Of a stretch of DNA of 45,520 nucleotides, positions 70-26,982 are shown in pieces. Position 1 is the stretch's first letter; each line of letters begins with the position of its first letter. The translations under genes were made by a program, and so were the position numbers. The DNA lies in the NCBI GenBank assembly GCA_013375375.1, contig JABXJX010000008.1, positions 1-45,520 on the forward strand. Direction: 5' to 3'. This DNA is from Desulfobacterales bacterium (GTDB lineage: Bacteria > Desulfobacterota > Desulfobacteria > Desulfobacterales > C00003060). Below the pieces are notes generated by a model, which was not told the DNA's origin, searched no databases, and saw only the letters and a program-made list of their open reading frames with translations.

Positions 70-269
70 GGGGGTCAAACCTACACATTTGACAAAACGA
101 GTGTTTTCAATGTGTTCGTAATAAGCTTTCCAAACTTCTTATCGTTCTTTTGCTTTAACTGGATTCTTCGACTCGCCTGGGTTACCCCTGATTCGCTCAC
201 ACCAAACCGTTTTCCGATTTCCCTTAATTTTTTGCCGCTATAGCGGTGGCACATAAGGCAAGGGGGCAA
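70..269 (-). pseudogene. C-terminal remnant of a RAYT/IS200-like transposase (DnaA-like HTH tail)
   Basis: 62-aa ORF with RYSGKKLREIGKRFGVSESGVTQASRRIQLKQKNDKKFGKLI, typical of the C-terminal HTH of REP-associated Y1 transposases. The catalytic HUH/Tyr part is absent. The ORF is followed by AGGTTTGACCCCC (plus-strand gggggtcaaacct, 70-82). Confidence 0.65.
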
Positions 270-338
270 GGGGTCAAGTCTGCTCTTGGCTCATTTAAAA
301 TTATAGCAAGAGTCAAGAGCAGACTTGACCCCTTGCCC
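264..338. repeat. GGGGTCAA-type hairpin element H1
   Basis: Perfect 25-bp inverted repeat gggcaaggggtcaagtctgctcttg (264-288) / caagagcagacttgaccccttgccc (314-338) with a 25-nt loop. Confidence 0.9.
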
Positions 339-350
339 TTAAAAAAAAAT

Positions 351-418
351 ATAACGCTCAGCTTGAGGGGCGTGGGTGGAGCGCCAGCGTAACCCGCGTC
401 CCTCTCAAAGCTGTTGTT
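351..418 (-). other. attC site (integron cassette recombination site)
   Basis: Minus strand AACAACAGCTTTGAGAGGGACGCGGGTTACGCTGGCGCTCCACCCACGCCCCTCAAGCTGAGCGTTAT: AAC...GTTAT ends, imperfect palindrome, GGCGCTCCAC-type centre. It overlaps the stop of the upstream cassette gene. Confidence 0.85.
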
Positions 419-1031
419 CGGGGGTGTTTTTTTTATCCATATGTTTCAATAACTCATTCATAGCGACATATTGCTGCATGCCTTTAATCCATGCTAACAA
501 TATCAAAGCTATTGCTGCAAACAGAAAATACGATGAAATGATCCATACAATAAGACATTCTTTTTTTATGAAGCATGCAACAAGAAGAATTATTGAAGCA
601 ATAAGCCAATTTGAACCCACTGCAGAGCCTATATGTTTTAGGGCTATTATCCTTTCAAAATCTTTTAATTCATCTTCCTTGTAAAATTTGAGCAATTTGA
701 TTCTTTCAGATGTGTATTCAAAATCATTTGGTTCCTTAAATTCCGACTTTGTAAATCTTCTATATAAAAACTTCAATAAGGTATTTGGGTTCTTGATTCT
801 GCCTGTAGTAAGCATCGGGCTTAAAGAAAGAACCTCTTGATTTATATATCCCGAAACATATGCTATTCCCAAGGTAAATATAGTAAGCACTGTGTTTTTC
901 GATAGTCGCTCAATGTCATCAAATCCAAATCCTAATGCAAAGGTAATCGAAAGTAGAAATGAGGCACCTCCAATTACATACATTAAGTCTCTGCTAAGAA
1001 ATTTACCAAGTCCTTTTATAATTTCATTCAT
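405..1031 (-). CDS. Cassette-borne multi-TM membrane protein of unknown function
   Basis: 208-aa ORF with several hydrophobic segments, followed immediately by an attC; the final Gln-Gln-Leu-stop codons lie inside the attC. Confidence 0.8.
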   Translation of the reverse strand: MNEIIKGLGKFLSRDLMYVIGGASFLLSITFALGFGFDDIERLSKNTVLTIFTLGIAYVSGYINQEVLSLSPMLTTGRIKNPNTLLKFLYRRFTKSEFKEPNDFEYTSERIKLLKFYKEDELKDFERIIALKHIGSAVGSNWLIASIILLVACFIKKECLIVWIISSYFLFAAIALILLAWIKGMQQYVAMNELLKHMDKKNTPEQQL

Positions 1032-1040
1032 CTACTTTCA

Positions 1041-1107
1041 CCAAACGCCCCGGCTCAGAGGTGCTGGACACGAAGTGGCCAGCATCCTTTTGCAGCCGTT
1101 TGTTATG
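1041..1107 (-). other. attC site
   Basis: Minus strand CATAACAAACGGCTGCAAAAGGATGCTGGCCACTTCGTGTCCAGCACCTCTGAGCCGGGGCGTTTGG: AAC...GTTTGG ends and an imperfect palindrome, between two minus-strand ORFs. Confidence 0.75.
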
Positions 1108-1148
1108 ATTTTTTTAGCTACAATAATATCTGGTTATTTTTTATTCCA

Positions 1149-2144
1149 TCATTTGTTAATGATTTTTTGATTCGCTACAGCCTGCTGATGGGATTTTATC
1201 TTATCTTCCCAGACGAACCAATCGAATTCTTGGTATAGTTCATCAAATAATACATTCGCCCAAGTTTTGTATATCTGCACCGAGGGATTCCATGTTCTGT
1301 ACCAGGGAAAATTGGCTGTGCATTTCATTCTCAAACCAATATTCTTGTAGTTTTGAAATGCAGGATCATTCGCTTCGATAAATTCCCGCTCTGGATCAGT
1401 CATCCCAATGTAATGCCCAACATTCCCCAAGCCGAACATTTGAGCACGATAAGTCATCTCAATCCTAATATCAAAATTGAAAGGCTTGTAGAGCCTGATT
1501 TCTGAAGGCCAAAACGGACCCTCCCCTTGGGTATATTGAATCCTCGTGTTCTTGGGCAAAGCAAGACCCCAAGAGAAGCTGATTATGTCATCAAAGAACA
1601 TGTTTTCTTTAAGTGAAGTCGGCATGCTATCCTTGGTGTAGGTTGCGATGTCATTTTTCACGGATTCCTTGCTTTCCAGTTCGCCCCCACCAGAAAAGAA
1701 AGTCGCTCCCGGTAATTCCAACGTCTCTTTCTTTACGTACCACGCTCTATTGTAATGCAAGAAGAGATGCTCTATTACGGCCATTACTTGCATATCGACA
1801 ATTGCTTTTTTATTCTCAAAGAAATCAAGCTCAGACTTCTCTTCTGATTCTGACAACCTTCTCTTGTAGCCGCTAAACATTGCCCCTCGTTTCATATAGT
1901 GTTGGGACAATACTGGCTTCCCAATGAAAAAAAGAAAGGAGTTCTCTTCCTTAGTCACAAAATATACTGGCGTGATTAATTTCTTGATTGGCTGGTCGTT
2001 GGTTACGAAGAGCAGAGCTACAATTATGACACCAAATGAAACGATTGTAGCTTCCCATATTTTCGGGGAACTCCTATTCTGATAAAGTAAAAACACCAGA
2101 ATAAATCCGATTCCAAAGAGTGCGAGTGACAATATTTTTGACAT
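1149..2144 (-). CDS. Cassette-borne membrane-anchored protein of unknown function
   Basis: 331-aa ORF with two N-terminal hydrophobic helices and a soluble domain, followed by an attC. Confidence 0.8.
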   Translation of the reverse strand: MSKILSLALFGIGFILVFLLYQNRSSPKIWEATIVSFGVIIVALLFVTNDQPIKKLITPVYFVTKEENSFLFFIGKPVLSQHYMKRGAMFSGYKRRLSESEEKSELDFFENKKAIVDMQVMAVIEHLFLHYNRAWYVKKETLELPGATFFSGGGELESKESVKNDIATYTKDSMPTSLKENMFFDDIISFSWGLALPKNTRIQYTQGEGPFWPSEIRLYKPFNFDIRIEMTYRAQMFGLGNVGHYIGMTDPEREFIEANDPAFQNYKNIGLRMKCTANFPWYRTWNPSVQIYKTWANVLFDELYQEFDWFVWEDKIKSHQQAVANQKIINK

Positions 2145-2261
2145 AATATATTACTCTCGATTTTGAATATGGATAAACAGAGCTTCACCTGACTCATGAA
2201 CAAGACCTGACACCATCCCACTCCTGGGATGACATGAGGGCAAAGATAAGATTTTTAATCA

Positions 2262-2370
2262 TAACCATTAAGTGTAAAGAACTAATTCAATGATATTAGC
2301 TATTCTTGAGTTAAACTTTGATTTATTTCATATGATGATATATCATAATCATTTATGAAAAAGCAATAAG
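2262..2370 (-). other. Integron head: attI-like core and cassette leader, with the first codons of a truncated divergent intI
   Basis: Plus strand cataaccattaagtgtaaagaactaattcaatgatattagctat...gatatatcataatcatttatgaaaaagcaa is closely similar to 25110-25215. The minus strand has a TTTACACTTAATGGTTATG core, and the plus strand has ATG AAA AAG CAA TAA at 2355. Confidence 0.6.
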
Positions 2371-2386
2371 TGGGCCTGGGGGGCCT

Positions 2387-2455
2387 GGGGTCAAACCTTG
2401 AATTGTGATTAAGAATTGACGCCTCCGATTAAAGCACAAATCAAGGTTTGACCCC
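2387..2455. repeat. GGGGTCAAACCTTG hairpin element H2
   Basis: Inverted repeat ggggtcaaaccttga(attgtg) 2387-2407 / (cacaaa)tcaaggtttgacccc 2435-2455. Confidence 0.85.
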
Positions 2456-3646
2456 ATCTCTTGCCTTAAAGGTGACCTCAAAGCTTAAAGGCTTTTTATC
2501 TCGCAACACTTCTATGATCCCTCTTTCACCCGGTTTCTTTAAGCCGATTAAGTAGGTGAGATCGAACCTTGTTTCAATTGGCTCTCCGTCCATAGCTGTT
2601 ATTATATCGTTTTTCTGTAATCCCACTTCTTCTGCCGTTGAGTTCTTGAGAGTTCCCAGTACCTTTACTCCGTCGTCAGTATCTCGAATCATGACTCCAA
2701 GATATACCCTTTGATCATCGAGATCCTGGTAGCTGACAATCCAGGCAAAATCTCCGGATTGTAAAGGAATTTCAGGCGGGGTGACGGCCATTAATTTGTG
2801 CTTTTTTTCCGGGGGGACATGAACCGTCATGGGAAGAACAATGGCATAGGGTAACGGAATGCGCCGAAATACCCGACGCGGAATACCGAAACCATATTGA
2901 ATATGATGGCTACCTGCAAAGATCAACATTTGCTTATCTTGACCATGTTCGCCTTGAAGATATTCGGCTATGCTCTCGGCCATGGATTCATCCCATAATA
3001 CCTGGACCCTATAAAAAGACTCAAAACTTTGCCCGCCCATCGGATGCTTACCAAAGACAGCCTTGATGTGAGCCCGGTGGTAGGGATCTTGAAAGTCCAT
3101 CTGTGGGAACTCTTCTTCATTATCTTTGGGCTGATCAGCGGATTCAGCCTTTTTGACTCTTTCCAGCCAGTCGCCAGGTGCGCGAAGGGCTATGAGAGGT
3201 ATTTTGTTCTCTCGGATATAATGCAGGATAGATCTATAATATTGAAAATCATTACTCCAGTTTTTCAGCCATATCTTCACGAAATCCTTTTCGTCTATTT
3301 TTCCGGATGTCCACTGATCAGCAGATTCCTGTGAAGACCTTTTTAGCATTTCAATGCCGACAGCTATTTTCTTGGGATGGCGTTTTGTAAGTGCCTTTAG
3401 AATTTCCATCTGTACCTTATGGCTATTGATATTGTCATGGACTTCACCCACATAAATTATTCTTGTTCCGGTTAACATATTTATCAATTGTTCCTTGGTT
3501 ATCTTGACTCCGGTAGGAATATGGATGATATCACCTTCTTTAAGAGAGGAGAGTTCCCTATAGGGTGATTGCCAGTTAAGCTTATGGCCGGCACAACCCA
3601 TTAAAAAGACGCAAAAGATTGTCCACATAATTTTTCTCTGCATCAT
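2441..3646 (-). CDS. ChaN/Tiki-like haem-uptake-family lipoprotein with C-terminal PDZ domain
   Basis: Lipobox LMGCAG; GTRIIYVGEVHDNINSHKVQMEIL and GIEML motifs typical of ChaN-like proteins; PDZ-like GVKVLGTLKNSTAEEVGLQKNDIITAMDGEPI. Confidence 0.8.
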   Translation of the reverse strand: MMQRKIMWTIFCVFLMGCAGHKLNWQSPYRELSSLKEGDIIHIPTGVKITKEQLINMLTGTRIIYVGEVHDNINSHKVQMEILKALTKRHPKKIAVGIEMLKRSSQESADQWTSGKIDEKDFVKIWLKNWSNDFQYYRSILHYIRENKIPLIALRAPGDWLERVKKAESADQPKDNEEEFPQMDFQDPYHRAHIKAVFGKHPMGGQSFESFYRVQVLWDESMAESIAEYLQGEHGQDKQMLIFAGSHHIQYGFGIPRRVFRRIPLPYAIVLPMTVHVPPEKKHKLMAVTPPEIPLQSGDFAWIVSYQDLDDQRVYLGVMIRDTDDGVKVLGTLKNSTAEEVGLQKNDIITAMDGEPIETRFDLTYLIGLKKPGERGIIEVLRDKKPLSFEVTFKARDGVKP

Positions 3647-3984: not shown

Positions 3985-4077
3985 TGCGTTGAGGGGCAAA
4001 CTTGCCAAAAGGTAGGGACGCAAAGCTTCCGGCCTAAGTTCCGATTTATCGGAATAAGGCAGCGGGGTTGCAAGACG
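3985..4077 (+). ncRNA. Cyclic di-GMP-I riboswitch (GEMM cis-regulatory element)
   Basis: gaggGGCAAACttgccaaaaggtaGGGACGCAAAGCttCCGGCCTAAgttccgatttatcggaataaggcAGCGGGGTTgc matches the GEMM-I conserved core. The stems CUUGCC-AAAA-GGUAGG and UUCCGAU-uu-AUCGGAA both fold. Confidence 0.92.
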
Positions 4078-4142: not shown

Positions 4143-5417
4143 ATGCAAATTACCGGCTCCTACAATAATTACGTGAACATGACGAATCTTCTCGCACCAT
4201 TAGGAGCAAGGGGTTCGGCAGATTTAGTCATGCAGGTCTTTTCGTCTGCTGTGGGGAATCTCCAAGACAAGATCAACCAGCAAATATTCTCTGAGGAGTC
4301 TGATGCCGCCATTAAAGAACTTTACAATGAAGTTTCGGATCTGGCCGGCCGGGCTGAAAAATTGACACTAACTTATTTTAATTCCGTCTTTTTTGACCGC
4401 ACACCTACATCCTCGGACTCCAACGTATTGACTGCTACGGCAGTCGACGCCTTTTCTCTCGATTCCGGAGCGGCTGAGGCCACCTATAACATTTCGGTTA
4501 ACCAACTGGCGCTGGCCCAGGAAAACACAGGATTTGAGTTAAATGCAGCCGATCCGAGCGTGGTTAATCCGGGAATCAATACATTCAACATTAACATCAA
4601 CGGCCAGGACCATGAACTCGGCATTGATGTGGTGGATGGTGATACCAACGAGGTCGTACTCCAAAAAATAGTGGCGGCCATCAATGATGCCGGTTTAGGG
4701 GTGACCGGGGAGGTAACTGCCGGCAGTTTAGAGGGGACTCAACAGTTGGTCATCACGGCTGATCAAACAGGCACGGCCGGTTCTTTCACCCTGTCAGACG
4801 TATCTGGTAATGCGGTGACCGTGACAGGCACTGCTACCGTGTCAACTGTAGCTCAAGATGCTGCATATACGGTTGATGGAACCGGCTATACATCTGAAAC
4901 TAATACCATCTATCTGGATAGCGGACTCGTTACAGTCAATCTAAAAGGAGCGGGGGAATCGATCTTGACGGTGGCCCCGGATCAGAACGAGGTCGAAAAC
5001 GCCATAACCGCCTTTGTTTCAGCAGTGAATTCCATTATAGATTTTCTGGAAACCAATTGTGACTACATCGAGGACGAGGTTCTGTCGTCCGTGAATTCTT
5101 TTGTCACCGAGCACAAGAGCGAACTGGAGTCTTTCGGTGTCACCATAGAAGAAGATGGAAAGCTTGTGGTAGATACCTACAATCTGGCTACGGCCGTGAA
5201 CGACGACCTTTCAGGTATTAAAGACGCTTTTGCCGGGTTCGACGGATTGGCCGTACAGGTCAAAAACTATACCGCCCGCATATCGACCGACTCTCCTCTC
5301 AATTATGCCAAGGAAGCCGAGGGTATGAGTAAGGATTTCGTTGATTACCTCTACGGTACTTCAGCGACGATGCTGGAAAAAATCCTCCAGGGGATGCTAC
5401 TCGATACCTTTGTGTAA
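4143..5417 (+). CDS. FliD-like flagellar hook-associated/cap protein
   Basis: YNISVNQLALAQENTGF (FliD N-like) and LQKIVAAINDAGLGVTGEVTAG...LVITADQTG (flagellin hook IN-like). GGAGG at 4132-4136 places the start at 4140/4143, not 4068; the first 24 track residues translate the terminator. Confidence 0.7.
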   Translation: MQITGSYNNYVNMTNLLAPLGARGSADLVMQVFSSAVGNLQDKINQQIFSEESDAAIKELYNEVSDLAGRAEKLTLTYFNSVFFDRTPTSSDSNVLTATAVDAFSLDSGAAEATYNISVNQLALAQENTGFELNAADPSVVNPGINTFNININGQDHELGIDVVDGDTNEVVLQKIVAAINDAGLGVTGEVTAGSLEGTQQLVITADQTGTAGSFTLSDVSGNAVTVTGTATVSTVAQDAAYTVDGTGYTSETNTIYLDSGLVTVNLKGAGESILTVAPDQNEVENAITAFVSAVNSIIDFLETNCDYIEDEVLSSVNSFVTEHKSELESFGVTIEEDGKLVVDTYNLATAVNDDLSGIKDAFAGFDGLAVQVKNYTARISTDSPLNYAKEAEGMSKDFVDYLYGTSATMLEKILQGMLLDTFV

Positions 5418-17764: not shown

Positions 17765-17869
17765 CTTTTCAAGACCGGACCCCGTCTTTTCCGAGGTCTT
17801 CTCTCAGGTTTTAAGTGGTGCACTTGGAACTTGAATTCACCATGAATCTGCTGACGATCGGAGCTAATA

Positions 17870-19180
17870 ATGAAGAAATGGAAGCTTGCCTGGAACGCTG
17901 CCCTCACGATTTTTGCGGTTTTTGCCATAACGGTCATGGTGCCCATAACCGGCTGCACGAAGAAAGAAGAAGATGAGACGAGAACCGTAATTCGCTTTGT
18001 TACGTGGAAGCCCAATCAACCGGAGGTTTGGGAGGAAATTTTTCGACGTTTTGAGGCCGAACATCCTGACATTCGCGTTGTGCGGGAGGTGGGCCCCCAC
18101 TCGACTACCGCCTTTCATGACCTTCTGACGCAGAAGCTCAAAAACCGGAGCCCTGATGTGGATGTTTTTTTCATGGATGTCATATGGCCTCCTGAATTCG
18201 CCTCAGCCGGGTGGGCACTCCCACTTGACGAACGCTTCCCGCACTCGGAACAAGAAAAATTTTTGAGTGGCGCAATCCTCGCAAATTCCTACAAAGGGAG
18301 AATTTATGGTGTTCCCCTATTTGTCGGTAGCGGCATGCTTTATTACCGGAAGGACCTGCTGAAACGCTACGGCTTCACCCCGCCTGATACGTGGCAGGAG
18401 ATGGTCGAACAGGCATGGAAGATTGTGTCCGAAGAGGGAAAGCAGAGAGAACTTTACGGATTTTCCGGACAATTCAAACAGTATGAAGGTCTTGTCTGTG
18501 ATATGATGGAGTACATTCTTAGCAATCAGGGGAGCATCCTCAATCCAAAGACGGGAGGATCTGAAATTGCGAAACCGGCAGCAGTAGGGGCAGTCCGGTT
18601 TGTAAGAGATAGTATCATTGGAGCGATCGCCCCTAAGGGAGTACTCACCTATCAGGAGCCTGAATCGATCGCTCTTTTTATACAGGGCAAGGCAGTATTT
18701 CATAGGAACTGGCCTTATGCTTGGGAGATGTCAAACAATCCGAAGCGCTCTAAAATCGTTGGCAAGGTGGGCATTACAAAACTCCCTCATTTCCCTGGGG
18801 GCACAAGCCACGCTACACTGGGGGGATGGCAACTCGGAATCAGCAAGTATTCTCAAAACAAAAAAGCTGCGTGGACCTTTGTCCGGTTTCTGACAAGTAA
18901 GAAAATTCAAAAATGCCTCGCATTGAAGGCAGGGCTCGCGCCAACCAGAAAAGCGCTCTATGAGGACCACGAAATCATAAAGGCCCATCCTCAGTTTTGG
19001 GACATGAAGGAGGTCTTTTTAACCGCCTATCCTCGTCCGAGAACCCCACTTTATCCGGCACTATCCAATGTCTTACAGCACTACTTCCACAAGGTCATAT
19101 CAGATCCGAATTCGGATATCGAAAAAGAAGCGTTTGCTGCTTCACAGGAAATCGACAGGATTCTTCAGTTGGCCCAATAG
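17870..19180 (+). CDS. ABC transporter extracellular solute-binding protein, family 1 (lipoprotein)
   Basis: Signal with ITGC lipobox; VIRFVTWKPNQPEVWEEIFRRFEAEHPDI; SBP-like organisation followed by permeases and an ATPase. Confidence 0.9.
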   Translation: MKKWKLAWNAALTIFAVFAITVMVPITGCTKKEEDETRTVIRFVTWKPNQPEVWEEIFRRFEAEHPDIRVVREVGPHSTTAFHDLLTQKLKNRSPDVDVFFMDVIWPPEFASAGWALPLDERFPHSEQEKFLSGAILANSYKGRIYGVPLFVGSGMLYYRKDLLKRYGFTPPDTWQEMVEQAWKIVSEEGKQRELYGFSGQFKQYEGLVCDMMEYILSNQGSILNPKTGGSEIAKPAAVGAVRFVRDSIIGAIAPKGVLTYQEPESIALFIQGKAVFHRNWPYAWEMSNNPKRSKIVGKVGITKLPHFPGGTSHATLGGWQLGISKYSQNKKAAWTFVRFLTSKKIQKCLALKAGLAPTRKALYEDHEIIKAHPQFWDMKEVFLTAYPRPRTPLYPALSNVLQHYFHKVISDPNSDIEKEAFAASQEIDRILQLAQ

Positions 19181-19204
19181 GGCCAATTTCCGCGGCGTGC
19201 AGGT

Positions 19205-20113
19205 ATGAAAAGGAGACATTCATCTATTACAAAAGAGAGAATATTTGCCGTATGGTTACTCATACCATGCTTTCTCGTTGTCTGCATTTTTGCCTTTTAT
19301 CCCATAGTCTATTCTTTCTTCCTCAGCCTGCACAGGATAATACTCGGACTTCCTTCTATTGGCCAACCATTCATCGGGCTCGAAAACTACCGAGCACTAT
19401 TACATGATAGCATCGCACTCCGTTCACTCGTCAATACCTTCGCCTTTGTCTTTATCTCCACATTCTTTGAACTGCTCTTCGGACTTATTATTGCTCTCGT
19501 AATCAACAAGCACTTTATGGGAAGAGGGTTGGTGAGAGCAGCAATCCTCGTGCCATGGGCGATTCCTACGGTTGTCTCATCACAAATGTGGAGGTTTATA
19601 TGTAACGACAACTATGGCCTTGTGAACTATATCTTGTTTGGTTCGGATGTTGCACAGTACAAGGCGTGGCTTGCTGACCCTTTTTTTGCCTTTGCCGCCA
19701 TAGTGGTTGCCGATGTATGGAAAACTTCCTCCTTTGCGGCGCTCCTGATTCTGGCAGGCCTCCAGACTATCCCGGATGAACTCTATGAAACAGCGAAAAT
19801 AGATGGCGCCAATGCATGGCAGCGATTTAGAAAGATAATACTCCCCCTTATCAAACCTGCGTTACTCATTGCGCTGCTGTTCAGGACCATGGATGCCTTC
19901 AGGGTTTTTGACCTTGTCTTCGTCATGACACAGGGAGGACCTGCCAATTCGACGAATGTGCTTCAATTTTACGGGTACAAGAAGATATTTGCCGAGGGGT
20001 TCATGGGGTATGGGTCTACTATTTCCGTGCTGGTGTTTATGACAGTTTTTGTACTGTCATTGCTTTATCTACGGATTATAAGAACGAGACTCTTTGCTGA
20101 AACCGTAACATGA
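19205..20113 (+). CDS. Sugar ABC transporter permease (MalF/UgpA-like)
   Basis: ETAKIDGANAWQRFRKIILPLIKPALLIALLFRTMDAFRVFD (EAA loop). Confidence 0.93.
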   Translation: MKRRHSSITKERIFAVWLLIPCFLVVCIFAFYPIVYSFFLSLHRIILGLPSIGQPFIGLENYRALLHDSIALRSLVNTFAFVFISTFFELLFGLIIALVINKHFMGRGLVRAAILVPWAIPTVVSSQMWRFICNDNYGLVNYILFGSDVAQYKAWLADPFFAFAAIVVADVWKTSSFAALLILAGLQTIPDELYETAKIDGANAWQRFRKIILPLIKPALLIALLFRTMDAFRVFDLVFVMTQGGPANSTNVLQFYGYKKIFAEGFMGYGSTISVLVFMTVFVLSLLYLRIIRTRLFAETVT

Positions 20114-20122
20114 AAGATAGGG

Positions 20123-20941
20123 ATGAAACCATCTAAGCTACTTTTTTATGGAATAATATTTATCATCATCTTCTTAAGCCTCCTCCCCTTTATCTGGTTT
20201 GTCCATACCTCGCTCAAAACCGAGGGAGAGGTTACAGCGATTCCCCCGAAACTTGTCCCGTCAGGATCGCTCAATTTTTACCGCTCAGCCATCACAGACT
20301 ACAATTTGTTGCACTACGTAAGAAATAGTGTCATTGTCGCGGGGGCGACCACATGTGTCACTCTGTTTATATCCGTGTTTGCCGCCTACGCCCTTGCACG
20401 ACTGAGATTAAAATATAAGGGGTTGATTATGGGGAGTCTTTTGCTTGTATCCATGTTTCCACAGATATCAATCGCAGGACCCGTGTGGAAGATATTACAA
20501 GCCCTGGGATGGCTCAATAGTTATCAAGGGCTCATTATTCCCTACGTCACCCTCACCTTGCCGCTCGGTGTCTGGATATTGACCAGCTTTTTCAACGAAC
20601 TCCCCAAGGAGCTTGAAGATGCCGCACGGATTGATGGGTGTACGCGGATTCAGGCACTTTACAAGATCGTAATACCCCTTGCTGCGCCGGGTGTTTTCAC
20701 TGCCGCAATACTCGTTTTCATTTATGCATGGAATGAGTTCTTCTTTGCGCTCCTGATTATGACGCAACAGAAATTCCAGACACTTCCTATTGGAATTGCA
20801 TTGTTCCAAGGGCAGTATACCCTCCCATGGGGAGAGATCGCTGCTGCCTCTACAGTAGCTACCGTGCCACTTGTGGTTGTTGTTTTTCTCTTTCAAAAGA
20901 GAATTGTCAGCGGACTATCAGCGGGCGCAATAAAAGGATAA
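20123..20941 (+). CDS. Sugar ABC transporter permease (MalG-like)
   Basis: EDAARIDGCTRIQALYKIVIPLAAPGVFTAAILVFIYAWNEFFFAL. Confidence 0.93.
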   Translation: MKPSKLLFYGIIFIIIFLSLLPFIWFVHTSLKTEGEVTAIPPKLVPSGSLNFYRSAITDYNLLHYVRNSVIVAGATTCVTLFISVFAAYALARLRLKYKGLIMGSLLLVSMFPQISIAGPVWKILQALGWLNSYQGLIIPYVTLTLPLGVWILTSFFNELPKELEDAARIDGCTRIQALYKIVIPLAAPGVFTAAILVFIYAWNEFFFALLIMTQQKFQTLPIGIALFQGQYTLPWGEIAAASTVATVPLVVVVFLFQKRIVSGLSAGAIKG

Positions 20942-20943
20942 CT

Positions 20944-22023
20944 ATGGCAGGATTAACGATAAAGAACCTGAAGAAATCATTTGGCACCAACACAGTTATA
21001 CAGGATATCTCCTTTGACGTTTCCGATGGAGCGTTTTGTATCCTGCTCGGGCCATCAGGCTGTGGAAAGACTACCATACTTAGGATAATCGCAGGATTGG
21101 AAGAGCATGACGAGGGTGAAATATTCATGGGGAATAAAGAGGTGGGCAATCTTTCCCCAAAAGAGAGAGATGTTGCTATGGTTTTTCAGAGCTATGCCCT
21201 CTATCCTCACATGAATGTCTATGAAAACATGGCATTCTCACTAAAAGTTAGAAACCTGTCAAAGGATGAAATCGATAGCAAAGTCAGAGAGGCTGCACGG
21301 CTTTTGGACATAGAGGATTTCCTGGACAGGAAACCCAAGAAATTGTCAGGAGGTCAGAGGCAACGAGTTGCTATTGGGCGGGCAATCGTCAGAAGCCCTC
21401 AGCTTTTCCTTTTTGATGAGCCTCTCTCGAATCTCGATGCAAGGCTCCGCAGCACCATGAGGGTAGAACTCGCAAAACTTCATCAGCAATTAGGCACGAC
21501 CATAGTCTACGTTACCCATGACCAGATAGAGGCAATGACCCTGGGAGACAAAATCATATTATTGGATAAAGGCATCATCCAACAGGTGGGCACCCCACAA
21601 GAGTTATACGAGAGGCCATCAAATCTCTTTGTGGCAACCTTTATCGGCAGCCCGCAAATCAATCTCATTGAAGGAAGCCTATTGAGCAACGAAGGGAGAA
21701 TGTTCTTTAAGTCCGGTGGCCTTACTATTGATCTTGGTCCGAGGACCGTGTTGGAAAAGTATTCAGGCAATACGGTAATCTTGGGAATACGGCCGGAGTC
21801 GTTGACGCCAGGGAACGGCCCGATTGTTGGTTCACTGGAAATTATTGAGCATATCGGGTCGGAAAACATTCTGTATGTGGCAACCGATATTGGAAGAATT
21901 ATCGCCAAGGCACCGCCGGATTTTCAGGGGAGAGCCGGAGAGGGGATATCGCTTGCATTAAGAACGACCGATATCCATTTGTTTTATAAGGGAATCAGAA
22001 TCGCAGTTGGGGTTTTGTCTTGA
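20944..22023 (+). CDS. Sugar ABC transporter ATP-binding protein (UgpC/MsmX-like)
   Basis: GPSGCGKTTILRIIAGLE, LSGGQRQRVAIGRAIVRSPQLFLFDEPLSNLD. Start corrected to 20944. Confidence 0.95.
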   Translation: MAGLTIKNLKKSFGTNTVIQDISFDVSDGAFCILLGPSGCGKTTILRIIAGLEEHDEGEIFMGNKEVGNLSPKERDVAMVFQSYALYPHMNVYENMAFSLKVRNLSKDEIDSKVREAARLLDIEDFLDRKPKKLSGGQRQRVAIGRAIVRSPQLFLFDEPLSNLDARLRSTMRVELAKLHQQLGTTIVYVTHDQIEAMTLGDKIILLDKGIIQQVGTPQELYERPSNLFVATFIGSPQINLIEGSLLSNEGRMFFKSGGLTIDLGPRTVLEKYSGNTVILGIRPESLTPGNGPIVGSLEIIEHIGSENILYVATDIGRIIAKAPPDFQGRAGEGISLALRTTDIHLFYKGIRIAVGVLS

Positions 22024-22165
22024 CACCTTTTGGCAAAGACTTTTCAACGGGTCCCCAATCATCCAAGCTTTTCCATCGATGGCTTCAAAATTATATTTTA
22101 CACATAACGAGACTGTCGAAAAACTCTTTTCTTCGCTCCAATTGACCATTTTTGAATAAAGATTC

Positions 22166-22226
22166 GGGGTCAAACCTTGATTAGTGATTAGTAAAGAGCC
22201 TTAATCACAGATCAAGGTTTGACCCC
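22166..22226. repeat. GGGGTCAAACCTTG hairpin element H3
   Basis: ggggtcaaaccttgattagtgatta (22166-22190) / taatcacagatcaaggtttgacccc (22202-22226), 23 of 25 positions complementary. Confidence 0.9.
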
Positions 22227-22244
22227 AATAGTTCATAGTTCTCT

Positions 22245-22273
22245 TGCCACGTCCGGTGCAGCTACTCGTTAGG
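22245..22273 (-). other. Truncated attC (left half-site only)
   Basis: Minus strand CCCTAACGAGTAGCTGCACCGGACGTGGC overlaps the stop of the HNH cassette; no matching right arm before hairpin H3. Confidence 0.6.
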
Positions 22274-23021
22274 GCTTGCCCCTATAAATACTTTCATTGT
22301 GATACCTAATATGGTCATCACCAATTGTATGTCCGGTAACCATAGCAAGGTCAGTTGATTCTATACGGTAAACACCATAATCCAATTCGGCATGATGATT
22401 TGGACAGAGGCATAATATGTTCTCCATGACATCTGGGCCATTGTGTGGTTTGCCTAGCGGCCGAATATGGTGGGCCTCAGCGTAATTAGAGCTGTCGGGA
22501 AGAACCATGGTATACCCACAAAGCTGACATTTGTAGTGATGAAGTGCCTTCACTCTTCTGGACAGATTTGTGTCACGAATGATTCGATAGGTCGTGATCT
22601 CCTCGCGCTCTGCAGGCGCGTCTATATCAGAGGCTGTAGGCGCCTGTGGAATCGCTGAAAGTGGAAGATGGGGTGTCCAGTCATACTCTTTAGACAATCG
22701 GATTTGGTCTGTCCACCATGCAGTATCGTCTTCAGCTTTACCAAAGAGACCGAAATAGCCTGGCCCGGGTGTGCCCGTGCCAGTATCGATGATTATCCCG
22801 GTTATGGCCGGCTTCCCTTCAGCTTCAGTCCAGTCCGCAAGGGAACTCAGTCCATGTAGTTTTAGACTCCGGCCCCAGGTTCCACCGCGCAAGCTGAGCC
22901 CAAGTTCTTTATGGACGGCCCTATAGCCGACATAGGTATGATGGTCTCCTGGCTCAACGTTTTTCAAATGTTTCACCAGGAAGGATAGTAGGCGCTGACC
23001 TTCCTCGTCCAAGTCACTCAT
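22269..23021 (-). CDS. HNH endonuclease (integron cassette gene)
   Basis: CQLCGY...AEAHHIRPLGKPHNGPDVMENILCLCPNHHAELD is a Cys-flanked HNH. Start corrected to 23021 (MSDLDEEGQ); the extra 20 aa in the track translate the upstream attC. Confidence 0.85.
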   Translation of the reverse strand: MSDLDEEGQRLLSFLVKHLKNVEPGDHHTYVGYRAVHKELGLSLRGGTWGRSLKLHGLSSLADWTEAEGKPAITGIIIDTGTGTPGPGYFGLFGKAEDDTAWWTDQIRLSKEYDWTPHLPLSAIPQAPTASDIDAPAEREEITTYRIIRDTNLSRRVKALHHYKCQLCGYTMVLPDSSNYAEAHHIRPLGKPHNGPDVMENILCLCPNHHAELDYGVYRIESTDLAMVTGHTIGDDHIRYHNESIYRGKP

Positions 23022-23037
23022 TCGTATTCTCCAAGGC

Positions 23038-23107
23038 CCTAACGTATTTTTCACCGGCTGGTGTGGAGCGCAGTGGAACACCAGTCAGGTGCAAAAAATG
23101 GTTATGC
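23038..23107 (-). other. attC site
   Basis: Minus strand GCATAACCATTTTTTGCACCTGACTGGTGTTCCACTGCGCTCCACACCAGCCGGTGAAAAATACGTTAGG: canonical ends and CGCTCCAC centre. Confidence 0.93.
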
Positions 23108-24337
23108 CTTTTTTTCTATAGTTTTGTACCAGATGATAATACCCCACCTTTCTGGTTCATTTGTCATTAAGAAAATATGCGTCCCTATCAATTTAATTCG
23201 TTCTTCATGTACCGATTCTTTTTTGCCGTCGACATATACAACTGTTTTATATTTATATTCTTTCCCCTTTTTTATTTTTCCGAATCGTCTTTTTATGTCC
23301 TTAGTCGTATAGAACAAATATAATCTGTGGTCACTGTCATAATAATAGGAACAGCCACCTTCTGAATGTTTTGTTATGTTTATACCTGCTATAGTTTCAT
23401 TGTGCTGATATTCCTTATCAAGTTTCAGGGGGTACAACTGTCCCTTTTCTTGAGATTGCCACCGCAGTATTGTATTTGCACCAAAATTATAACAAAATAA
23501 AGCATCTTCTTTTTTCCAAGGTCTCTGCATTACAATGTTGCCATATGAATCTTCTGGGCGATATTTTGAAGGGATATGATCTAAATATTCTTTGAAACGT
23601 CTATAGTCGGTATTGTTAATTCCAAGATAAGTTAGCTCAAGCTCCTCTTTAATTGTTTGAAAGCCGTACATAGCAAAATCATCTTTTTCTTTTGAATACA
23701 CCAGGTTGGGGTAAAGAGCGGTTGATATATTTGAATGTTTGAGTTTCTGGAACAATTCATTTTCAAATGCGTTACGAGTAGAAACAATACTGTCTAACCA
23801 CTTCTTTGAATCAATTTTGTTTTCAGCATTTTTGAGATATTTTTTTGTGATCTTATCTTTAATGACTGATGATATTTTTAAATCATCTAATTTGAATCCA
23901 AAAATATTGACTAAAACTTTATTAAAAAATCTCTCGGTAATTTTGGCAAAACGATCTAGGTCGGCGTATGGTGCAACCGCACCATGCTGAACTAAATTTC
24001 TTGTTTGTCTCAAAAGTTTAATTTCTCCCAAATAAGGTAAACTGACACTTGCGAATTCTTTGAGAGCTTTATTGATAGATGCTGCAAGGTTTGCTAATTC
24101 AAAAGTGTCAAAATTTTTACCTGTTGTTGACTCCAAATCTAGGTGTGTAACGATACATCTCAATATGTATTCTATTGTGTTATCTAAGCCAAGAATTGCT
24201 ATCATATTGTCGAATTCTGTTTGCTGACTTGCATGTTCATGGGCATGGGAAAGCATCAACCGTGCTCTCATCAGCAGTTGCAGCGATTCTTCGTTTGGTG
24301 CAATGGGTAAGTTAATATTAGTTGTAGTTGTTATCAT
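23102..24337 (-). CDS. Cassette protein with HEPN-like N-terminal region (RNLVQH) and unknown C-terminal domain
   Basis: 411-aa ORF; helical N-terminal ~150 aa with LLRQTRNLVQHGA (RxxxxH). Stop TAA lies within the GCATAAC of the attC. Confidence 0.7.
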   Translation of the reverse strand: MITTTTNINLPIAPNEESLQLLMRARLMLSHAHEHASQQTEFDNMIAILGLDNTIEYILRCIVTHLDLESTTGKNFDTFELANLAASINKALKEFASVSLPYLGEIKLLRQTRNLVQHGAVAPYADLDRFAKITERFFNKVLVNIFGFKLDDLKISSVIKDKITKKYLKNAENKIDSKKWLDSIVSTRNAFENELFQKLKHSNISTALYPNLVYSKEKDDFAMYGFQTIKEELELTYLGINNTDYRRFKEYLDHIPSKYRPEDSYGNIVMQRPWKKEDALFCYNFGANTILRWQSQEKGQLYPLKLDKEYQHNETIAGINITKHSEGGCSYYYDSDHRLYLFYTTKDIKRRFGKIKKGKEYKYKTVVYVDGKKESVHEERIKLIGTHIFLMTNEPERWGIIIWYKTIEKKA

Positions 24338-24353
24338 TTTTAATTTTTTCAGG

Positions 24354-24428
24354 GCATAACGCTTCGCTTAAGAGGTTGGTCGTGGAGCGCAGCAGGATGA
24401 CCAATCCTTCTTCAAGCGGTTGTTATGC
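24354..24428 (-). other. attC site
   Basis: Minus strand GGCATAACAACCGCTTGAAGAAGGATTGGTCATCCTGCTGCGCTCCACGACCAACCTCTTAAGCGAAGCGTTATGC: canonical ends and palindrome. Confidence 0.95.
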
Positions 24429-25096
24429 CGACTTTTGTTTTGTATCCCATTCTTTGTATCGATCAACTAGGTCTTCTAGCAAGAGGCGCACTTGCGAAAA
24501 CGTTTCTTTTGCAAACTCTGAATCAATCAACAAATAATTGTAGTATGAAGAGATCCCTAAATTTCGTTTTTCCAAAGCCTTCATCTTTCTCTTGATTTTA
24601 TCATTCGCCATATCCAGCCTGCCATTTGCGTGGGCTATTGTATGACGAACGTCAGCAAGTATTTTTATTCGTTGCCAAGCATTGACATCGCTGCACAAGT
24701 CAAATTGAAGAAGATTTTTGTAATATTTCTTTGCTCTGTCAAGAAAGTCACCTCTAAGGTCATTGATGCCGATTCCCTGTTTTTGTGCCCGTTGAAGCAA
24801 ACGCGCTATTTCTATTACGCTTGTTTCGAGGACTGCATATAAAGACACAATAAAGGGGCCCCAAAAAAAACGAGGGAGGAGGACTCTAACTTTGCTATCG
24901 TATTCCTGCCGAGCTATATGCCATTCTGGATCTTCCGGCGTTAAACCTTCTTTTTTTCTATACTCATCAAGCGTTAATCTTTCTGAATTACTTAGATGTG
25001 TAATTTGTTTTTCTTTTCTATGATTTCATAATGATCTTCAAGGGCATGAAGCTCTAAAGATACATCAAGCAATCGAAAATCAAGATCTATCTTCAT
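24423..25096 (-). pseudogene. Frameshifted cassette gene for a HEPN-like protein (VRHTIAHANG)
   Basis: ATG at 25096 opens MKIDLDFRLLDVSLELHALEDHYEIIEKKNKLHI-stop. A shift near the A-rich run at ~25005-25015 restores QITHLSNSERLTLDEYRKKEGLTPEDPEWHIARQEYDSKVRVLLPRFFWGPFIVSLYAVLET..., in frame with the track ORF 24423-24848. Confidence 0.75.
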
Positions 25097-25104
25097 TTAT
25101 TTCC

Positions 25105-25203
25105 TTTGGCATAACAATTAAGTGTTAAGATTTTATTCAACGATATTAGCTATCGAAATATTATTTCTTGATATTTTTCTTTTACGAGATATCATAATAT
25201 TTA
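25105..25203 (-). other. attI-like site and cassette leader of integron remnant 2
   Basis: Minus strand CTTAACACTTAATTGTTATGCC core (inverted TAAC/GTTA boxes) immediately before the first cassette; no attC-type long palindrome; lies between the intI remnant and cassette 1, and is conserved with 2262-2370. Confidence 0.6.
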
Positions 25204-25318
25204 ATGAAAAATCAAGGATTTAATAATCACAAAAACCTCGCAAACTACTCGATCAGGTACGCGATGTCATGCGTTTGAAACACTATGCTTTTTTTACCGA
25301 GCGCACTTATCCCTTATG
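25204..25318 (+). pseudogene. intI: 5-prime remnant of an integron integrase gene
   Basis: ATG at 25204 reads MKNQGFNNH; after a one-base frame change it continues SQKPRKLLDQVRDVMRLKHYAFFTERTYPL, resembling the N-terminal SAM-like domain start of IntI proteins. The rest is lost. Confidence 0.75.
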
Positions 25319-25472
25319 TTGCATAAACAACCCGGCAAGAATGTGATAAAACCAAGGTGGTAAAGGGTTCCCTGAGTTTATCGACCGCTTGGGACAAACG
25401 CACACGTGGTCAATTCCAGAAACGTTATGATATTTGCCGAGTTGTTCACCCTTCGGGAAAGCCGATGATACC

Positions 25473-25546
25473 GCATCTGCTGCGTTGTCAAGGATTCGGC
25501 GTAAATTACTACAGCCTCACCCTTGACGCCTTGCATCTGCAGCATC
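25473..25546. repeat. Palindromic dispersed-repeat element (GCATCTGCTGCGTTG...GCCTTGCATCTGCAGC)
   Basis: Partly inverted ends ctgctgcgttgtcaag / cttgacgccttgcatctgcag; shares the CCTTGCATCTG-(C/G)AGC end with 44230-44381. Confidence 0.55.
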
Positions 25547-25727
25547 CTAAACTTTTGCAACGTTAGGGTTATATAGGCTGGATCAAACGGTTCATCCTTT
25601 TTCACGACAAAAAACATCCCAAGGAGATGGGGAATCAGGTGAGAATAGGAAAAATTGATATTTCCTTGACATAATGCTTCATTTTTGCTTAAATTATGGA
25701 AACAACAATTCCAATACGGAAGCAAAT

Positions 25728-26882
25728 ATGGATACAAAGATTCGTTTTTTCCAGGATGCGAAGCAGAGCTTTTTTCTGTTTGGCCCGCGAGGAACAGGAA
25801 AGTTCACATGGGTTAAACAGCATCTGGGGAATGCACTTATTATAGACCTTTTGGCACCGGAGGTATACCGGCCTTACTCAGCTAAGCCGGAGAGGCTACG
25901 GGAAGTTGCCGAGGCGCAAACTTCCGGCAACTGTATTGTAATAGATGAAATTCAGAAATTGCCTCAGCTCCTGGATGTGGTACATCAATTAATGGAACAG
26001 CGTGCAGGATGGCGTTTTGTATTAACAGGCTCCAGCGCAAGAAAGCTAAAGCGGTCGGGAGTGGATTTACTTGCAGGACGTGCTGTGGTTAAAACGATGC
26101 ATCCGTTTATGGCTGCCGAGCTGGGTGATGAGTTTTCCCTGGAAGGGGCCCTTGCTTTAGGCATGGTTCCCTTGGTTCTGGATGCAGTAAGTCCCAAAGA
26201 GGCGATTGACGCTTATATTGCCCTTTATCTCAGGGAAGAGGTTCAGATGGAAGGGCTTGTCCGCAATATGGGTAATTTCAGCCGGTTTTTGGAATCCGTT
26301 AGCTTTTCGCACGGAGCCGTTCTTAACATTTCAGATGTTGCTCGGGATTGCCAGGTAGAGCGCAAAACCGTAGAAGGCTATGTTTCAGTCCTCGAAGATT
26401 TGCTTTTGGCCTTCCGCATACCCGTTTTTACGAAACGCGCCAAGCGGCACTTATCGTCACATCCCAAATTTTACTATTTTGATGCCGGGGTTTTCAGGTC
26501 TGTACGTCCTGCAGGGCCACTTGATGCGCCTCAGGAAATTGACGGAGCAGCTTTAGAGGGGCTTGTCGCTCAGCATCTTCGCGCATGGAATTCTTATAGG
26601 GGAGATGCATACAAACTTTATTTCTGGCGCACAAAATCAGGGAATGAGGTTGACTTTGTAGTTTACGGACAGGATACGTTTTTCGCTATAGAAGTTAAAA
26701 ACACGGCAAAGATACACTCTAAAATGCTCAACGGATTACTCGCTTTTAGAGAAGATTACCCTGAAGCACAAACCTGTCTGCTGTATCGGGGCAAAGAGCG
26801 CATAAAAATAAAAAACATATTATGCCTGCCATGCAAAGAATTCTTAATGAACCTGGTACCTCAAAACCCGATTCGGTTATAA
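25728..26882 (+). CDS. DUF4143-type AAA ATPase with C-terminal PD-(D/E)xK-like region
   Basis: FLFGPRGTGKFTWVKQ, IVIDEIQKLPQLLDVVH, FVLTGSSARKLKR, LYLREEVQMEGLVRNMGNFSRFLE, FWRTKSGNEVDFVVYG...AIEVKNT. Start corrected to 25728. Confidence 0.88.
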   Translation: MDTKIRFFQDAKQSFFLFGPRGTGKFTWVKQHLGNALIIDLLAPEVYRPYSAKPERLREVAEAQTSGNCIVIDEIQKLPQLLDVVHQLMEQRAGWRFVLTGSSARKLKRSGVDLLAGRAVVKTMHPFMAAELGDEFSLEGALALGMVPLVLDAVSPKEAIDAYIALYLREEVQMEGLVRNMGNFSRFLESVSFSHGAVLNISDVARDCQVERKTVEGYVSVLEDLLLAFRIPVFTKRAKRHLSSHPKFYYFDAGVFRSVRPAGPLDAPQEIDGAALEGLVAQHLRAWNSYRGDAYKLYFWRTKSGNEVDFVVYGQDTFFAIEVKNTAKIHSKMLNGLLAFREDYPEAQTCLLYRGKERIKIKNILCLPCKEFLMNLVPQNPIRL

Positions 26883-26982
26883 TTCAAGAAAAGGAGGGAA
26901 GGCGAATAGACCCACCGCCCAGCCTTTTACCTTGACACCTATAGGCAAATACGTTAGCTCAATTGCAGATCGTGATAACATA

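Follow-up and report, generated by a model that had tools for sequence, protein, structure and literature searches.

The TIRtrons and their TIRYT transposases are characterised by terminal repeats with the motif GGGGWSAS (PMC3733652). The word integron is absent from the text of that paper, and no integron link is described in it. For ISHahl1, an insertion sequence beside a cassette array, co-mobilisation was considered by the authors, but no partner element was close enough (PMC7923331). No title or abstract was found in the literature that describes a link between integrons and repetitive extragenic palindromic (REP) sequences or REP-associated tyrosine transposases (RAYTs). To our knowledge, the detachment of attC clusters from the integrase is poorly documented. 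The DNA described here comprises 45,520 bp of a Desulfobacterales bacterium (contig JABXJX010000008.1 of assembly GCA_013375375.1; hereafter the window) and contains two cassette arrays whose broken edges carry hairpins. The components are ordinary and the arrangement is informative: an integron relic is edged by RAYT-derived hairpins of different families.

The window is the entire contig (C189); position 1 is the contig end and the left flank lies off contig. The source genome of 2.18 Mb (197 contigs, 87% complete) was compared with 21 further genomes of the genus, and genome-wide counts are based on pattern searches and model searches. For attC sites, a covariance model built on trimmed attC arms (R1) was used; its training set includes the attC sites of the window, whereas those of contigs C178, C182 and C117 are outside of it. 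End families were assigned by comparing the 22 positions after GGGG between hairpin arms and RAYT ends. The left part of the window, with the first array (array 1), is organised as follows:

71-95, plus strand: RAYT terminal repeat of end type D (GGGGTCAAACCTACACATTTGACAA); 21 of 22 positions are the same as in the type-D end on C131
84-260, minus strand: RAYT C-terminal remnant of 59 codons, 5' part missing at H1 (translation; homologous RAYT C-termini in the order)
264-338, no strand: hairpin H1, dimer of type-A RAYT ends (fold, arm comparison; intact type-A RAYT on C115)
350-419, minus strand: attC 1 (R1, 31.7 bits; in training set)
405-1031, minus strand: cassette open reading frame (ORF), 208 aa, no family (ORF and family searches)
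1041-1106, minus strand: attC 2 (R1, 35.3 bits; in training set)
1149-2144, minus strand: cassette ORF, 331 aa, no family, no relative found (ORF and family searches, search of the genome contigs)
2260-2369, minus strand: attI of array 1, integrase gene (intI) side at the right end, intI missing (repeat of 25110-25215; homologues beside intact intI)
2386-2456, no strand: hairpin H2, dimer of type-B RAYT ends, where attI joins the ChaN-like gene (fold, arm comparison; ChaN-like homology in relatives ends at 2459-2464)
2441-3646, minus strand: gene of a ChaN-like/PDZ protein, last codons supplied by H2 (Pfam PF04187 and PF13180; comparison with relatives)

As the first-pass annotation had read it, array 1 between H1 and H2 is an integron fragment. 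It is a genuine relic with attI, two cassettes and two attC sites, but without intI. Its minus-strand ORFs are each followed by an attC with a two-arm structure. The ∼110 bp that precede the first cassette recur at array 2 and were assigned as attI because, in two further genomes of the order (L179, L183), their homologues immediately precede intact intI genes. The intI of array 1 was lost exactly at the start of H2 (2386), about where it would begin.

The hairpins themselves, including the perfect 25-bp stem claimed for H1, proved to be real by their folding z-scores and arm complementarity. The arms of H1 (264-292 and 310-338) are 97% complementary with the perfect stem at 264-288/314-338, and the DNA fold has -35.4 kcal/mol (z -12.1). 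H2 has arms at 2386-2410 and 2432-2456 with 92% complementarity and a folding z of -9.2, and H3 at the edge of the second array (22165-22227) has a folding z of -10.1. With up to one mismatch, the box GGGGTCAARYCT was found seven times in the window compared to 0.96 expected, a number never reached in 100 shuffles, and the exact box occurs 43 times genome-wide. The GGGGTCAA box common to the hairpins is a general head motif close to the TIRYT motif: the head of types A-E is GGGGTCAA, the last base of which is off GGGGWSAS, while GGGGTCAG (type F) and GGGGTCAC (anammox relatives) fit.

The H1 arms agreed with the ends of RAYT-A at 19-22 of 22 positions and with those of RAYT-B at 9-11. For the arms of H2 and H3, agreement was 19-21 of 22 with RAYT-B ends and 9-11 with RAYT-A ends. 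The two proteins share 33% identity, and cross-reaction between them presumably does not take place. The genome has several RAYT genes, and several of these are flanked by their own clear inverted ends. Full-length genes flanked by such ends, which the first-pass annotation had suggested to look for, are indeed among them: RAYT-A on C115 and RAYT-B on C144 are intact, both genes being open with their ends in place. The family PF01797 (Y1_Tnp) was detected above cut-off in RAYT-A, RAYT-B and the C144 neighbour of RAYT-B, with the HYH motif in the sequences. The closest relatives of the RAYT-B gene that carry a name are Desulfobacterales, by which the host would probably belong to Desulfobacterota. 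The RAYT-A gene on C115 was also considered as part of an integron and dropped, its neighbour being an Rhs-like gene. In total, 31 GGGGTCAA elements are dispersed in the genome, with separate dimers on C131, C178 and others, and lone type-A and type-B hairpins were found at other sites of the genome as well as in the relatives G016 and G020.

A third RAYT type adjoins H1. The 59 residues of the remnant at 84-260 (minus strand) match RAYT C-termini from other genomes of the order with E-values down to 2.5e-13, in agreement with the earlier reading of a RAYT-type C-terminal remnant. It represents the C-terminal helix-turn-helix part and ends inside the box at 71-82. This end had been equated with the box of H2 and H3, which holds for the common 12-nt head GGGGTCAAACCT; beyond the head it belongs to a different end family (type D). 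A full-length RAYT-D gene was not found; the six Y1_Tnp matches in the genome are of other types.

The second array (array 2) lies further right in the window and is likewise cut by a hairpin:

22165-22227, no strand: hairpin H3, dimer of type-B RAYT ends, edge of array 2 (fold, arm comparison)
22236-22275, minus strand: half attC cut at H3 (sequence reading; the model did not find a whole site)
22269-23081, minus strand: cassette ORF, HNH endonuclease (PF13391)
23038-23105, minus strand: attC of array 2 (R1, 36.6 bits; in training set)
23102-24337, minus strand: cassette ORF, 411 aa, no family (ORF and family searches)
24355-24426, minus strand: attC of array 2 (R1, 41.4 bits; in training set)
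24423-24848, minus strand: cassette ORF, weakly HEPN-like (ORF and family searches)
25110-25240, minus strand: attI of array 2 (repeat of the array 1 attI; homologues beside intact intI)
25226-25635, plus strand: interrupted relic of the intI 5' part (tblastn to intact intI at 25525-25635, E 1.8e-4; start aligned with intact intI)

Hairpins related to Y1/RAYT transposases thus stand at broken edges of both arrays, as had been noticed before. At H1, a truncated RAYT-D gene lies opposite a complete attC, which is 12 nt away; at H2, an attI devoid of intI adjoins the ChaN-like gene; and H3 cuts an attC in half. Comparable joins were found elsewhere. A cassette gene lacking its 5' part abuts the intact RAYT-B on C144. 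Where C153 and C166 end, an attC-like fragment faces a 5'-truncated cassette ORF; these two contig ends may represent both halves of a single type-A hairpin. A type-A hairpin on C191 (L061:113) cuts a fic-like gene just before the HPYMDGNGR motif, and at L198 a RAYT-B relative lies between gene pieces that do not match. Either deletions and recombination take place at the hairpins, or DNA already in decay is where the elements mainly persist. On the other side of the C191 hairpin there seems to be a RelE-like toxin gene, as judged by reading the sequence.

The right flank of array 1 was compared with relatives. Their homology to the ChaN-like gene ends at 2458-2469, the edge of H2. In the five relatives with a clear ortholog (loci including L064, L066-L070 and L075), a lipoprotein gene follows the ChaN-like gene, with no array present; where shown (L064, L075), cysQ comes after the lipoprotein gene, and more distant relatives have a different neighbour. 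This lipoprotein gene was not found in the source genome, and for cysQ only a weak match at another place was obtained. A search of 22 genomes of the genus with the ChaN-like protein gave nearest relatives at ∼82% protein identity; in these the whole segment is missing, and their distance does not allow the insertions to be dated.

A further signature was observed at the element ends. Tandem micro-duplications of at least 8 nt, made of outer flank and part of the GGGG head, occur at 19 of 69 RAYT or hairpin ends in comparison to 0.5% of random flanks. RAYT ends with such duplications are those at L053, L198-L201, L207-L210, L212, L215 and L228. Among genes, the left end was affected more often (13 vs 4), which was not significant. 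Within the window, the left edges of H1 (264) and H2 (2386) are duplicated. As the edge of H2 concerned is the inner one facing the integron, separate insertions fit better than one composite.

Taken together, it is quite probable that array 1 is a degraded integron fragment, that H1 and H2 are separate non-autonomous RAYT-derived insertions and that the integron was broken at or near these hairpins. Array 1 would be a fragment of a degraded chromosomal integron, and H1 and H2 would be REPIN-like dimers of terminal inverted repeats (TIRs), that is, two inverted terminal repeats of a RAYT/TIRYT-type HUH transposase each, of families A and B. The intact RAYT of the same family, encoded at another site of the genome, probably mobilised each of them in trans. 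The two would have inserted independently in or beside the integron and its neighbours, and later deletion or recombination at or near the hairpins would have removed intI, part of the RAYT-D gene and half of an attC, leaving the hairpins at the joins. The order of these events and any causal role of the hairpins in the breakage are what we infer from this arrangement. Several points weigh against it. All joins are known from a metagenome assembly, and the left flank of array 1 is off contig. The independence of the insertions in time is deduced from family identity, and no close strain shows either of them alone. Furthermore, attI together with a mostly short, truncated intI start is found three to four times per genome, away from an intact integrase, in G044 and G141 (L176, L177, L178, L180, L181, L182), and no GGGGTCAA hairpin is located at these breaks. 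Breakage just past attI therefore needs no hairpin, and the hairpins may be later arrivals rather than causes. If so, they would be passive elements that inserted into the non-coding remains of an integron which had decayed before, in line with the preference of REP-type elements for extragenic DNA (PMC3116915). We regard this course of events as doubtful, though with some chance of being correct, given that several elements sit exactly at joins of unrelated gene pieces (H1, H2, H3, C144, C191, L198), a placement not expected from random insertion after decay. Chimeric joins made by the assembler at repeated hairpins are very unlikely: several contigs of this metagenome-assembled genome do end inside such hairpins (C153, C166, C65, C179), but H1, H2 and H3 are individually distinct, and their longest exact matches to the other element-bearing stretches compared from the genome (33, 25 and 19 nt, respectively) are short for usual assembly word lengths.

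The first-pass annotation had gone further and proposed that hairpins break up or relocate integron segments, with H1 and H2 as the ends of a hairpin-hairpin composite. Breaking is compatible with the position of the hairpins at broken edges and with their enrichment near attC sites; relocation as a composite was not borne out by the different families and missing copies. Such a unit of H1, cassettes, attI and H2, moved by a RAYT as single-stranded DNA, would resemble the integron mobilization units bounded by miniature inverted-repeat transposable elements. Two RAYT-type hairpins do bracket attI and cassettes here, and among Tn3-family elements, composites with a miniature element at either end are known (PMC13367494). 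We nevertheless consider the composite extremely unlikely, because type-A and type-B hairpins also occur singly elsewhere and because the boundary elements belong to different RAYT families. No second copy came to light: 264-2455 had no match in plasmids, and no relative of the larger (331-aa) cassette was detected in 84,980 species genomes (GTDB). The outer flanks, RAYT-D remnant and ChaN-like gene, are not adjacent in relatives, and the same break just past attI exists in relatives without any hairpin.

The enrichment near attC sites allows another explanation, in which integron DNA, such as the folded attC strand, is a target of the RAYT-B lineage, or this lineage rides inside cassettes, with array edges as preferred sites. 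Of the 18 distinct attC that R1 detected in nine clusters of the genome, several are strong and were not part of the training set (C178, C182, C117). Eight of the 31 GGGGTCAA elements lie within 1.5 kb of an attC compared to 0.5 expected (binomial P 2e-8), and without the window it is 4 of 27 compared to 0.35 (P 4e-4). In this test, the training set holds attC sites first seen near such elements, the null model places elements anywhere, including coding DNA, elements close to each other are not independent, and integron and RAYT-derived DNA alike accumulate in variable regions. Outside this genome, an attC lies within 4 kb at 8 of 38 RAYT-B-group loci and at none of 42 distant RAYTs (P 0.002), the split between these sets having been made after the result was seen and the sets differing in taxa. 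The RAYT-B relatives near attC come from Desulfobacterota and anammox planctomycetes. A RAYT-B-related gene on C144 (L054:3756-5275; 320 aa, own GGTGTCACATCTTGATT ends) lies between two attC and thus inside a gene cassette, and in the relative G017 a hairpin of another GGGGTCAAGTCTCCG family follows 78 bp after an attC (L184:62-269 on C163). On the other hand, elements are rarely inside attC (1 of 31 within 100 bp), type-A elements occur near attC too and many type-B elements do not (C131, C178, C110). Targeting by RAYT-B is unlikely. Slightly less so, but still rather improbable, is the wider proposal that a RAYT/TIRYT lineage with GGGGTCAMACCTTGATT ends in Desulfobacterota and anammox planctomycetes has a lasting link to integrons, inserting in arrays or travelling in cassettes, and that its hairpins detach arrays from their integrase.

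The surroundings of the arrays hold some further features. A c-di-GMP-I riboswitch was found at 3985-4075; the ORF downstream of it (4144-5417) is flagellar-cap-like, a protein name that comes from reading the sequence. The HNH endonuclease at 22269-23081 is distant kin of the phosphorothioated-DNA restriction enzyme family, below the cut-off of that family. The region 17765-26903, which contains array 2, is absent from relatives where both flanks align, and there the histidine kinase adjoins lysS. It forms a 9.1-kb island with a sugar ABC transporter, array 2, the intI relic and an AAA/DUF4143 ATPase; its borders carry imperfect direct repeats, and 31-bp direct repeats (81%) are located at 22013 and 26925.

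At this locus, the edge hairpins can be assigned to transposase families of which the genome also carries intact genes, and the lost integrase is placed within ∼20 bp. It is the surplus of RAYT-B-type elements near integrons that deserves further attention; if the excess near attC survives a controlled survey, integrons and RAYTs would be two single-strand hairpin systems in recurrent interaction.

In comparison with described systems, the elements share with TIRYT the Y1 (HUH) RAYT-type genes, long inverted repeats, the GGGG head, dispersed dimers and several families per genome, and differ by the GGGGTCAA head of types A-E (PMC3733652). Like the REPINs of Bertels and Rainey (PMC3116915), they consist of two inverted RAYT-associated repeats forming one hairpin that is non-autonomous, intergenic and in low copy. 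REPINs have two short GTAG-type REPs, in place of which the present elements show GGGG heads and long near-perfect stems; their low copy number is a further difference. An integron part between two miniature elements is also seen in the integron mobilization unit and in TIME-COMP composites (PMC13367494 and references there), yet those are bounded by two copies of one Tn3-type element with one transposase, whereas different HUH families are found here. ISHahl1 (IS200/IS605) from Halorhodospira halochloris is similarly a single-strand transposon immediately adjacent to a cassette array that lacks intI, but it is a full tnpA/tnpB insertion sequence and a single case, in contrast to the RAYT-derived hairpins of this genome (PMC7923331). 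Group IIC-attC introns, described in the same paper, are likewise mobile elements with repeated occurrence in cassette arrays; their insertion site is a consensus within the attC stem-loop, while the hairpins reported here usually lie beside attC.
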